This document shows positions 52,740-56,681 of a stretch of 64,000 bases of DNA, in pieces; position 1 is the first letter of the stretch, and each line of letters opens with the position of its first letter. This DNA is from Propioniciclava sp. MC1595 (GTDB lineage: Bacteria > Actinomycetota > Actinomycetes > Propionibacteriales > Propionibacteriaceae): assembly GCF_017569205.1 (NCBI RefSeq), contig NZ_CP071870.1, positions 2,418,001 through 2,482,000 of the forward strand, written 5' to 3'. The notes below the pieces were generated by a model that saw only the letters and a program-made list of their open reading frames with translations, searched no databases and had not been told where the DNA came from. The translations under genes and the position numbers were made by a program.

Positions 52740-53756
<1,017 letters not shown>

Positions 53757-53798
53757 TGGCTCGGGTCACGTGGCTCACAGACCAGCCGTCCGTGACAG

Positions 53799-53850
53799 AT
53801 GCGCCTCGTAGGTGAATCCGCGCCTGCTCGAGCAGGTGCAGATTCACCCA
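53799..53850 (+). repeat. Left palindromic repeat (REP-like) flanking the AbiEi/DUF559 gene
   Basis: 52 bp that match the reverse complement of 54880-54931 at 45 of 52 positions by hand count. It contains GGTGAATC and GATTCACC half-sites around CCTGCTCGAGCAGG, so it can fold as a hairpin. It lies between the convergent galE and AbiEi-like genes and could also terminate both. Confidence 0.7.
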
Positions 53851-53885
53851 ACACGCGTGGCTGAAAGCATGGAGCCGCCCCGGGC

Positions 53886-54797
53886 CTAGGGTCGCCATCC
53901 CTGGCGCTCGAGCGCGGTGCGCAGGAGCTTGCCCAGGGCGCTGACGCTCCAGGCCTGGGCCCAGCCCCAACGGGTGACCCAGAACCCAGCCTGCCGGATG
54001 CTCTCCTGCCTGCGGTTCTGCGCGACCATGACGTCCTCGGGTGACTGGTCGTTCCCCTCGACCCGGCGGTACTTGACCTTGCCGTCGACCTCGCCGATGA
54101 GGTTCCAGTCCTCCCACCCGAAGTCGCCGCGTGCCACGAGGAGCCCATCGACCTCGACGCGGAACTGGGGAACGGGTTGGGGCAGCCCCGTACGGGAGAT
54201 CATCACCCGGCTCACCGATTCGGCCACCGACTCGGAGCGGCCATCGGCGAAGGCGATCACCTGACGCGCCTGCTCCACGCCGGTCATTCCCTTGCTGGCC
54301 TGGACCACGGCCAACAACGAATCCCGCGAGACGTCCCGGGCCAGGGCCTGGTCGGCGGCCACCACGGCCCACGCGTGCTGGGCTGTCCGGGCGAGGTCTA
54401 CCACCGTGCGGGCGAGGGACGTGACGCGCAGGTCACCCACCGTCACGACATCGTCCGCGGTGAACCGGGCGCAGTGAAGGTGGTAGGTCGCCGTCCGCCT
54501 GCCGCGGCCCGGTGGCGGCGTGGTCAGGTCCACCAGCCGTGGGTTGTCGACCTGCACCGCCAGCCCGTGGGCGATGGCCGCCGAGGCGTGCGAGAGCACC
54601 ACGGAGTCACGGTGCGTGCTGAGCAGGGCCGCGGCCCGCACCAGGTGCTCGTCGCGCGGGGACAGCTCCCGGGCTGGGGTGTAGACCCGGCGCGTGAGCC
54701 TGACCAACTCATGCGCAGCGACGGCGCGGCGCACCTGGTACGGGGTCCAACCCGCTGACCTCAGGGCAGGGATTGATCTCAACTGGGGGTCGTCCAT
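53886..54797 (-). CDS. AbiEi-like HTH + DUF559-type nuclease protein
   Basis: A 303-aa protein of an actinobacterial family often called 'type IV TA AbiEi antitoxin domain' or DUF559. The N-terminal third is a winged-HTH-like region (LRSAGWTPYQVRRAVAAHELVRLTRRVYT). The C-terminal part has a PD-(D/E)XK pattern: E190/E193, D225, E236, D238 and K240 in DFGWEDWNLIGEVDGKVKY. A very-short-patch-repair-like nuclease fold is likely. No AbiEii toxin lies beside it. TTGGCT is 6 nt before the ATG at 54797. It sits between two inverted repeats. Confidence 0.82.
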   Translation of the reverse strand: MDDPQLRSIPALRSAGWTPYQVRRAVAAHELVRLTRRVYTPARELSPRDEHLVRAAALLSTHRDSVVLSHASAAIAHGLAVQVDNPRLVDLTTPPPGRGRRTATYHLHCARFTADDVVTVGDLRVTSLARTVVDLARTAQHAWAVVAADQALARDVSRDSLLAVVQASKGMTGVEQARQVIAFADGRSESVAESVSRVMISRTGLPQPVPQFRVEVDGLLVARGDFGWEDWNLIGEVDGKVKYRRVEGNDQSPEDVMVAQNRRQESIRQAGFWVTRWGWAQAWSVSALGKLLRTALERQGWRP

Positions 54798-54879
54798 GCC
54801 TCCAGCCAACCGGTCCCGGTGCCGCCGGGCACCAAACCGGGTGCGTCGCCTGTGGACAACACGGGACAGACGCGCCTGA

Positions 54880-54931
54880 TCGGTGAATCCGCACCCCCTT
54901 CAGCAGGCGCGGATTCACCGACGAGGCGCAT
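54880..54931 (-). repeat. Right palindromic repeat (REP-like), inverted copy
   Basis: Inverted copy of 53799-53850. Here the internal stem is longer: GGTGAATCCGC (54882-54892) and GCGGATTCACC (54909-54919), 11 bp with a 16-nt loop. It lies between the malic enzyme gene's end and the promoter of the AbiEi-like gene. Confidence 0.7.
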
Positions 54932-54962
54932 ATCTGCCGATCGAGGCCCGGCACCCTTGGCG

Positions 54963-56681
54963 TCAGTCCTCCAGGACCAACTCCGGGTAGACCGGCTGCC
55001 ACATGGCGTCGAAGACCTCCTGCACGGGGTCGGTGAGGGGCTCGCCGGCGACGCCCTCGGCCTCGGCCGCCTTGGCGACGGCGATCGCGACGGTCGCGGA
55101 CACGCGACGAAGGTCGTTCAGGGCCGGCAGGATCGACTGGCCGGGACGGCTGATCCGCACCAGCGAGGCCAGCGCCTGCGCGGCAGCGCCGATCATGCCG
55201 TCGGTGACCCGCGAGGCCCGGCAGACCGAGACGCCCAGCCCCAGCCCCGGGAAGATGAACGCGTTGTTGGCCTGGGCGATCGTGTACTCCACGCCCTCGT
55301 ACCGGACCGGGTCGAAGGGCGACCCGGTGGCGATGAGCGCCCGCCCGGACGTCCACTCCAGCAGGTGGGCCGGGGTGGCCTCGACCAGCGAGGTCGGGTT
55401 CGACAGCGGCATGATGATCGGCCGCTCGGTGTGGGAGGCCATGTCGGTCACGATCTCCTGCGTGAACGACCCCGGCTGCGCCGACGTGCCGATCAGGATC
55501 GTCGGGTGCACGTTGCGCACCACGTCGGCCAGCCCGATGTGGCCGGGCTCGTCGAGGGTCCAGTGCTCGACCTCGCCGTGGGCCCGACCGTAGGGCCGCT
55601 GGAAGTCGCGCGCCTTCGCGCCCGGGGCGTCCGTGACGAGGCCACGGCTGGCAGTGACCCAGAACCGCTGGCGTGCCTGCTCGGGGGTCAGCCCCTCGGC
55701 GACCATGAGGTCGACCAGCAGGTCGGCGATGCCGATGCCGGCCGTCCCGGCCCCGTGGATCACGACGCGCTGCGCGGAGAGCTTCTCGCCCTTGGCGCGC
55801 ACCCCCGCGAGCGCGGCGGCCCCGACGACGGCCGCGGTGCCCTGCACGTCGTCGTTGAAGGTGCACACCTTGTCGCGGTAGGTGGTCAGGATCCGGTGGG
55901 CGTTGTCGGCGCCGAAGTCCTCCCAGTGGATCATCGCGTGCGGGAACACCCGCTGGACCCCGGCCACGAACTCCTCGATGAACGCGTCGTAGCGCTCACC
56001 GCGCACGCGCGCCTGGCGCAGGCCGAGGTAGAGGTCGTCGTTGAGCAGGCGCAGGTTGTCGGTGCCGACGTCGAGCACGACGGGCACCATGCGATTCGGG
56101 TCGACGCCCGCGGCCGCCGTGTAGAGGCTCTTCTTGCCCAGGCAGATCTCGACGCCGCCCACGCCCTGGTCGCCGATGCCGAGGATGCCCTCGGAGTCGG
56201 TGACGATGACGATGTCGACGTCCTCGGCGCGGCGCCCCATGGCCAGCAGCGACTCGTCGATCACCTCGGGGGCGTTGATGTTGAGGAACACGCCGTGGAT
56301 CTGGCGGAACATCATGCTGAATTCCTGGATCGCGTCACCGATCGTGGGGGTGTAGATGATCGGCATCATCTCGGCCATGTGCTCGCTGACGAGGCGGTAG
56401 AACAGCACCGTGTTGCGGTCGCGCAGCCCGCGCAGGTACGCGAACTGCTGCAGCGGGCTGCCCGCGGCGAGGAAGCGCTGGTAAGTGCGGTGCAGCTGGC
56501 CCTCGAGCGGGGTCGAGTGCGCCGGCAGCAGGCCAATCAGGCCCAGCTTCTGACGCTCCTCCTGCGTGAAGGCCGTGCCCCGGTTGAGCCGCGGGATGCG
56601 CAGGATGGCGCTGCCCCGGGCGTTGACCTTGATCCGGGTGCCGTGGTTGCCGGGCAGGACCTCGTACGCGCGCTCAGTCAT
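54963..56681 (-). CDS. NAD-type malic enzyme
   Basis: Oxidative decarboxylation of malate to pyruvate. The 572-aa long form has IIYTPTIGDAIQEF, the malate site RILGLGD-like region as EGILGIGDQGVGG, metal/NAD loop WEDFGADNAHRIL, FNDDVQGTAAVV and GAGTAGIGIADLL. SNPTSLVEATPAHL closes the active site. TAGGGT lies 6 nt before the ATG. The length and motifs favour the SfcA/MaeA type. Confidence 0.95.
   Translation of the reverse strand: MTERAYEVLPGNHGTRIKVNARGSAILRIPRLNRGTAFTQEERQKLGLIGLLPAHSTPLEGQLHRTYQRFLAAGSPLQQFAYLRGLRDRNTVLFYRLVSEHMAEMMPIIYTPTIGDAIQEFSMMFRQIHGVFLNINAPEVIDESLLAMGRRAEDVDIVIVTDSEGILGIGDQGVGGVEICLGKKSLYTAAAGVDPNRMVPVVLDVGTDNLRLLNDDLYLGLRQARVRGERYDAFIEEFVAGVQRVFPHAMIHWEDFGADNAHRILTTYRDKVCTFNDDVQGTAAVVGAAALAGVRAKGEKLSAQRVVIHGAGTAGIGIADLLVDLMVAEGLTPEQARQRFWVTASRGLVTDAPGAKARDFQRPYGRAHGEVEHWTLDEPGHIGLADVVRNVHPTILIGTSAQPGSFTQEIVTDMASHTERPIIMPLSNPTSLVEATPAHLLEWTSGRALIATGSPFDPVRYEGVEYTIAQANNAFIFPGLGLGVSVCRASRVTDGMIGAAAQALASLVRISRPGQSILPALNDLRRVSATVAIAVAKAAEAEGVAGEPLTDPVQEVFDAMWQPVYPELVLED

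Follow-up and report, generated by a model that had tools for sequence, protein, structure and literature searches.

A gene for an AbiEi-like and Vsr-like protein between its own palindromes: a candidate nuclease-repeat partnership in actinobacteria

Analysis of the window, the 64,000-nt stretch of DNA from Propioniciclava sp. MC1595 considered here, revealed a gene for a protein with an AbiEi-like region and a predicted Vsr-like nuclease domain that lies between two inverted copies of a 68-bp palindrome. To judge from the sequences, this site has either the gene with its palindromic units or neither of them, and we favor, with a probability of about 0.55, a reading in which they form one unit of a repeat-associated nuclease family that would work as RAYTs do with REPs, with a hydrolytic Vsr-like enzyme instead of the tyrosine HUH one. 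The pattern suggests that in actinobacteria a nuclease and repeated DNA are partners in a way not described before: within the titles and abstract openings of the open-access literature, a scope that most subscription papers fall outside, we found no paper tying AbiEi-like, DUF559 or Vsr-like proteins to bracketing repeats.

The cassette, its insertion site and its protein

The elements of the locus, in window coordinates, are as follows.

52740..53756, plus strand: NAD-dependent epimerase gene, left neighbor of the insertion site, its 3′ end facing the cassette
53796..54934, no strand: whole cassette (unit, gene, unit), 1139 bp, between the convergent epimerase and malic enzyme genes
53796..53863, no strand: 68-bp composite palindrome downstream of the stop of the window gene (covariance model, 66.7 bits)
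53886..54797, minus strand: AbiEi-Vsr-like window gene, 303 aa from ATG, stop excluded
53889..54245, minus strand: predicted C-terminal Vsr/EDxHD-homing-endonuclease-like nuclease domain, residues 185–303 (domain model and Foldseek)
54072..54092, minus strand: E236-x-D238-G239-x-x-K242 motif (alignment of 78 sequences)
54123..54125, minus strand: D225, conserved acidic residue (100% of 78 sequences)
54219..54221, minus strand: E193, conserved acidic residue (100% of 78 sequences)
54288..54761, minus strand: AbiEi-like region, residues 13–170 in ATG numbering (PADLOC AbiEi model, Foldseek 6y8q)
54867..54934, no strand: 68-bp composite palindrome upstream of the start of the window gene (covariance model, 66.5 bits)
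54963..56681, minus strand: malic enzyme gene, right neighbor of the insertion site, its 3′ end facing the cassette

The reading frame agrees with that of the preliminary description, 53886–54797 from ATG. The start codon is uncertain between this ATG at 54797 and a TTG at 54809, which would give 307 aa, and a comparable upstream TTG reading is present in the homolog from genome G004 (see below). The bracketing by inverted palindromic copies that had been described for this gene is real: the arms, 53799–53863 and 54867–54931, are 65 nt long and 83% complementary, with 1003 nt between them. In a flank test comparing the 450 bp on the left of a gene with the 450 bp on its right (threshold score 20, or 22 in the combined set used below), the window locus scored 37.5, while none of 83 other genes reached 20, nor any of 188 when neighbors were included; these controls rule out chance as the source of the bracketing.

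The site was compared across 13 genomes of the genus, G000 (the window genome) to G012. Among them, a close homolog of the window gene occurs elsewhere only in G004 (70% identity, other matches being at most 51% identical), where it has the same neighbors (the epimerase is 87% and the malic enzyme 96% identical) and both palindromes. A strict-pattern search had suggested that the G004 gene lacked the repeats, which was overturned by alignment, as each G004 copy has one change inside the pattern; a relative keeping the gene at this site without repeats, named in the preliminary description as a case against its reading, was therefore not what G004 turned out to be. In G001, G002, G005, G007 and G008, the epimerase gene directly faces the malic enzyme gene. 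The window gene and the window palindrome are both missing there, and the aligned coding ends of the flanking pair lie 117, 105, 13, 51, and 14 nt apart, respectively; the malic enzyme of G007 is 87% identical, and the gaps of G002 and G001 hold unrelated hairpin-like sequence, as read from the alignment. The joint absence of gene and repeats in sister strains, proposed earlier as a check, is thus seen in five relatives, over gaps of 13–117 nt and with the flanking pair kept adjacent, and the idea of a small cassette comprising the gene and both units gains support from it. The site was uninformative in G003, G006, G010, and G012, where the epimerase was not found beside malic enzyme, and in G009 and G011, in which malic enzyme had no match. 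As the malic enzymes of G000 and G004 are closest to each other, a single gain in their common ancestor is the simplest history, and we infer that the cassette was gained once, in that ancestor.

With about 1.1 kb, one gene, inverted end repeats and absence from relatives at the site, the cassette resembles an insertion sequence; it differs in that no transposase family was found in the window protein, no target-site duplication was visible by eye, each cassette end is itself a palindrome, and solo copies of the ends exist. As for a free-standing homing endonuclease gene, which cuts the empty allele and is copied into it, the comparison covered the presence and absence of the cassette at this site in relatives.

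The AlphaFold2 model of the window protein has a mean pLDDT of 94.6 and a pTM of 0.90. Compared as a whole by Foldseek, it matched the AbiEi structure 6y8q (E = 5.1e-6) and, as second fold match, Rv2827c (1zel). The PADLOC AbiEi model matches residues 17–174 in TTG numbering (E = 1.2e-17), and all 13 PADLOC models that match the protein are named AbiEi. Pfam AbiEi_1 and AbiEi_4 stayed below their cut-offs in the window protein, in which no Pfam family was found at E ≤ 0.001; among 43 family members, AbiEi_4 matches 14 and AbiEi_1 two. The last 119 residues, modeled alone, gave a pLDDT of 92.1, and the best Foldseek match of this domain was the I-Bth0305I catalytic domain 3r3p (probability 1.00, TM 0.63/0.75, E 5.2e-3), followed by Vsr 1cw0 (probability 0.97, E 0.07). 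A sequence search of the PDB gave nothing useful. On these models, the window protein is an AbiEi-like region joined to a nuclease fold of the Vsr/EDxHD type.

When the window protein was aligned with 77 of 80 relatives, three broken or over-long frames being left out, E193, D225, E236, D238, and G239 were present in 100% and K242 in 96% of the 78 sequences. The preliminary description had called the nuclease motif intact with D225, E236, and K240; the motif is indeed intact and the two acidic residues are conserved, but the lysine is K242 instead. Its DUF559 label was not upheld, for there is no DUF559 match in Pfam or NCBIfam, and these two collections likewise gave no match to a known transposase. 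A Y1 HUH domain gave no match in the window protein even at a limit of 10.

The predicted fold of the nuclease domain is thus that of I-Bth0305I and Vsr; unlike these, the window protein has an AbiEi-like region preceding the nuclease, and its gene lies between repeats. A further apparent difference from EDxHD endonucleases is a K where H would be expected, as we read the motif from sequence, with E193, D225, E236, D238, and K242 conserved. The N-terminal region resembles AbiEi, the antitoxin of the AbiE type IV toxin-antitoxin system, by both models and structure, and Rv2827c by fold. The window protein departs from AbiEi in its extra nuclease domain, and its gene in having bracketing repeats; in contrast to the AbiE system, no AbiEii nucleotidyltransferase gene lies beside the window gene, the locus at which this was checked.

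The palindromic unit and its dispersed copies

Each window copy is a palindrome in itself, with 50 of 68 positions self-complementary. The unit extends over 68 bp once aligned to copies elsewhere, and its consensus is self-complementary at 66 of the 68. The 52-bp repeat with GGTGAATC/GATTCACC arms recognized earlier stands as the core and falls short of the full extent, which includes outer arms (CAGAYGCRCC on one side). As read from the alignment, each half of the consensus carries a motif twice, as the related copies AGATGCACC and ATCTGCACC, at a distance of 19 bp. In 13 aligned unit copies, standard pairs make up 89.4% of the pair cells, and none of 500 shuffles attains the covariation score; as the copies are related, this covariation mainly says that the palindrome has been kept.

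RNA folding of the two window copies gave z = -4.9 and -7.7, in agreement with the hairpin potential already attributed to each of them. A terminator scan found no U-tract terminator, which rules out a classic U-tract terminator as the identity of the palindromes; of the terminator-like repeat that had been considered for them, what is left is a possible terminator role of the hairpin, if transcribed. The 13 aligned window-type units have no GTAG or CGTC tag at their ends, unlike REPs.

A BLAST search seeded with a single window copy overlooked the genuine copy at 1120156, for which reason the covariance model was used to find dispersed copies. It located the unit at six places in G000, 13 in G004, one in G011, and none in the other 10 genomes of the genus; beyond the cassette pair, this leaves four other places in G000 and 11 in G004, one of them, on contig C11, weak. 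Hence, 19 of the 20 places in the genus are in the two genomes with the window gene, although the co-occurrence of unit and gene is partly a matter of kinship, since G000 and G004 are mutual nearest relatives here. The strict core pattern, less sensitive than the covariance model, occurs in two of 198 genomes of the bacterial family. The preliminary description had reckoned with a repeat that is widespread beside unrelated genes and has no link to the gene; the copies do lie beside unrelated genes, yet nearly all of them in gene-carrying genomes.

Of 17 measured window-type copies, 12 follow the stop of a called reading frame at a distance of 3–65 nt, the reference genes being open frames from a simple script rather than annotation. 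The count uses 17 of 20 rows, as two rows of unit pairs were duplicated and the weak C11 copy of G004 was unplaced. No target-site duplication was seen by eye at the 17 copies.

Five of the six G000 copies occur at the same sites in G004, which points to slow turnover. These are the cassette pair and the copies at 968026 (C22:350251 in G004), 1003612 (C22:323935), and 3337074 (C2:63473), the last site being also common to G011, where the single unit copy occurs without a close homolog of the window gene. The sixth G000 copy, C1:1120141, lies behind a transporter gene, and the corresponding gap in G004 (locus L187, C22:218091–218186) holds GCCGAGGGCTTG repeats, the type of another family member. 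This gap therefore has a different repeat type in each species, as if sites behind genes were reused.

No clean empty junction for solo units was found at the sites compared. At a nitrate-transporter/ABC-F site, G004 has the repeat of a different family member and G007 another coding sequence in the gap; at a fumarase site, the unit is absent from G000, G007, and G011, but the gaps are filled with other sequence. The G004 copy at C2:69824 is in a region without alignment to G000, and the one at C2:19611 had no syntenic match in the stretches compared.

G004 also has an 83-bp piece with the unit that occurs twice, 6 kb apart, with 96% identity and otherwise dissimilar 3-kb surroundings. Separately, the window-type units of L155 and L160 (G004 contigs C3 and C9) share about 1 kb of 85% identical surroundings, that is, a larger duplication that includes the unit.

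Bracketing and repeat types across the family

The best 80 of 94 relatives from the genome collection, all from actinobacterial loci by title, comprised 71 with enough flanking sequence and nine too near a contig end. At a score of at least 20, 51 of these 71 loci are bracketed, against one of 144 regions shifted by 2300 bp and four of 600 mixed cross-locus pairs. Within the genus, 21 of 28 family loci reach a flank score of 22, with an own repeat per lineage; bracketing as a peculiarity of the window gene is ruled out by these loci together with the 51 relatives. In the combined set of 102 loci, which includes four locus pairs with identical protein, 75 are bracketed at 22 or more and 27 are not bracketed at this threshold. 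Clustering the proteins at 60% identity, 57 of 71 clusters have a bracketed member. On the side, locus L043 (G007, contig C172) has a family gene with a strong palindrome on one side only and a flank score of 11.0, and is possibly a decayed or half cassette.

The 75 bracketing units fall into 54 sequence types, with a median matched length of 71 bp. A self-palindrome above the 99th percentile of controls occurs on at least one side in 36 of 72 loci and on both in 13; arrays occupy other flanks. A repeated 10-mer is present in 90 of 157 flank segments, and in 44 of these 90 the smallest lag is 19–20 bp; in control segments, a 10-mer is repeated in 73 of 298, with a lag of 19 or 20 in one of them, the lags there being mostly multiples of three, as coding DNA would give. 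This construction from motif copies some 19–20 bp apart, as well as the matched length, sets the family units apart from REPs.

Unit similarity depends steeply on the distance between proteins. Leaving out four pairs of identical protein, it exceeds 0.3 in all 14 pairs at 70–98% protein identity and in four of seven at 60–70%, and then in two of 48 at 50–60%, two of 96 at 45–50%, and two of 2606 below 45%. For pairs below 90% identity, unit and protein similarity are weakly rank-correlated (rho 0.076, a value reached in 43 of 500 permutations); such a weak overall correlation would be the outcome if recognition were to change completely over a short distance, and gives no support in itself. 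By these comparisons, the repeat sequence is specific to the gene lineage, being common only to close protein pairs.

The GCCGAGGGCTTGNGT repeat was counted 56 times in G000, 115 in G004, 28 in G011, 10 in G009, once in G007, and not at all in the eight other genomes of the genus, with the reversed pattern occurring a single time in the whole set. The matching protein lineage (L015, L046, L057, L058, L061, and L064, grouped by inspection of translations) is found, with matches at E ≤ 1e-10, only in G000, G004, G009, and G011, and these four genomes hold 209 of the 210 repeat matches; two of its six genes, L058 and L061, fall below the bracketing threshold. For a second type, pairs of GAGATCGAC gave 84 matches in Cellulosimicrobium, Isoptericola and other genomes: 79 are in six of the seven Cellulosimicrobium and Isoptericola genomes (2 to 22 each, at a spacing of 19–20), none in the seventh, which carries the unbracketed locus L136, and five, with a spacing of 21, in three of 12 other genomes. 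Together with the window unit, three repeat types were tested in this way, and their extra copies are scattered almost exclusively over genomes that have the matching gene.

Units of the GCCGAGGGCTTG type are built as oppositely oriented arrays. A cluster of it, with three direct and two inverted copies, lies at G000:C1:2482241–2482564, 241 bp past the window end.

RAYT (TnpA-REP) genes, or REPtrons, are described as single genes flanked by their own palindromic repeats (PMC3116915; PMC3733652), and the same accounts give each gene its own repeat type, with dispersed extragenic copies near gene 3′ ends and a proposed co-diversification (PMC3116915; PMC3733652). The window gene is likewise flanked by its own palindromes, and 51 of the 71 loci from the best 80 of 94 relatives by matching repeats, and dispersed copies exist for three unit types, their position relative to genes having been measured for the window type only. 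The RAYT-REP-like unit suggested in the preliminary description is borne out as an architecture, by gene-specific repeats on both sides, dispersed copies, and a repeat that follows the protein among close relatives. The enzyme is of another kind: in place of a Y1 HUH domain, which was not found, the window protein has a predicted Vsr/I-Bth0305I-like fold with conserved E, D and K residues.

A possible mechanism and its alternatives

By analogy with RAYTs and with I-Bth0305I, we infer that the window protein would recognize, cut and move its palindromes. Through its AbiEi-like part, the protein may bind as a dimer or larger assembly to motif copies that share one face of the helix; their regular spacing, close to two helical turns, suggests that several subunits approach the DNA from one side. 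For I-Bth0305I, dimerization on a target of nearly 60 bp is described (PMC3943268), a length that fits a 68-bp site. The nuclease part would then nick or cut the palindrome or adjoining DNA, and repair or copying would place further units elsewhere, for the most part closely following stop codons, the whole cassette being moved occasionally. Weighing against this mechanism are the slow turnover, the lack of visible target-site duplications and of a clean empty junction for solo units, the 27 unbracketed loci, the weak overall correlation, the kinship of the two carriers, the G011 copy without a close homolog of the gene, and the E value of 5.2e-3 for the nuclease domain alone.

A wider proposal, to which we give slightly less than even odds, is that Actinobacteria harbor selfish pairs in which an AbiEi-Vsr nuclease recognizes its own composite palindrome through a motif repeated every 19–20 bp, spreads it to positions behind genes, and at times relocates its own gene between two such positions. 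Such pairs would be a convergent equivalent of RAYT-REPIN systems, built around a hydrolytic nuclease, with recognition diverging so fast that below about 60% protein identity the repeats are nearly always unrelated. If true, this would explain where a layer of actinobacterial intergenic repeats comes from, and offer a second, chemically different answer to the persistence of short bacterial palindromes, so far tied to RAYTs. It would also supply dozens of protein-site pairs from which to read directly the code by which a compact DNA-binding region recognizes a short motif, and AbiEi-like "antitoxin" genes with this nuclease domain would need to be read anew.

Of the alternatives, a site-specific regulator survives best, unlikely as we hold it. 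Its AbiEi-like part would bind the units as operators of its own gene and of a scattered regulon, the nuclease-like part would be structural or act on RNA, and the repeats would have been spread by ordinary duplication. This accommodates the AbiEi-like region seen by PADLOC and Foldseek, the unit upstream of the start of the window gene, and a motif spacing of about two helical turns, which suits protein binding. It fits poorly with the second unit, downstream of the gene, with the position of 12 of the 17 measured copies close behind stops and not in promoters, and with acidic residues and a lysine kept at 96–100%.

Somewhat less probable again is that another enzyme, such as a RAYT, transposase or integrase encoded elsewhere, moves the units, and that the AbiEi-Vsr gene is cargo of an element ending in them. 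A shared outside mover would not explain many unit types, each with its own lineage of one protein family, nor does it sit well with dispersed copies that follow the matching gene, as in the GCCGAGGGCTTGNGT and GAGATCGAC types, even if a gene between inverted units resembles an element with terminal repeats and the copies are placed behind genes in a REP-like manner.

A defence or self-marking device ranks below both and seems to us improbable; in it, the nuclease would use the chromosomal units for docking or as sinks, and attack incoming DNA carrying or lacking them. AbiEi, after which all 13 matching PADLOC models are named, is a component of a defence system, and the many lineages and their fast change would be in keeping with such a role; but the neighbors of the window gene are the epimerase and malic enzyme genes, with no AbiEii partner, and the repeats at both gene ends would be left unexplained. 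Least probable of all, palindromes that are ordinary bidirectional transcription terminators or mRNA 3′-end structures with no link to the protein would account for strong hairpins behind stop codons and between convergent genes, but not for the lack of a U-tract terminator in the scan, for the absence of matching flanks around the other genes at these loci (0 of 188), or for units that are lineage-specific in sequence and, in the GCCGAGGGCTTG type, are arrays in opposite orientation.

At two loci, L085 and L090, a family gene lies between an apparent dapB and an apparent pnp (named by inspection), with these neighbors on opposite sides; the two may represent one site with the gene inverted.
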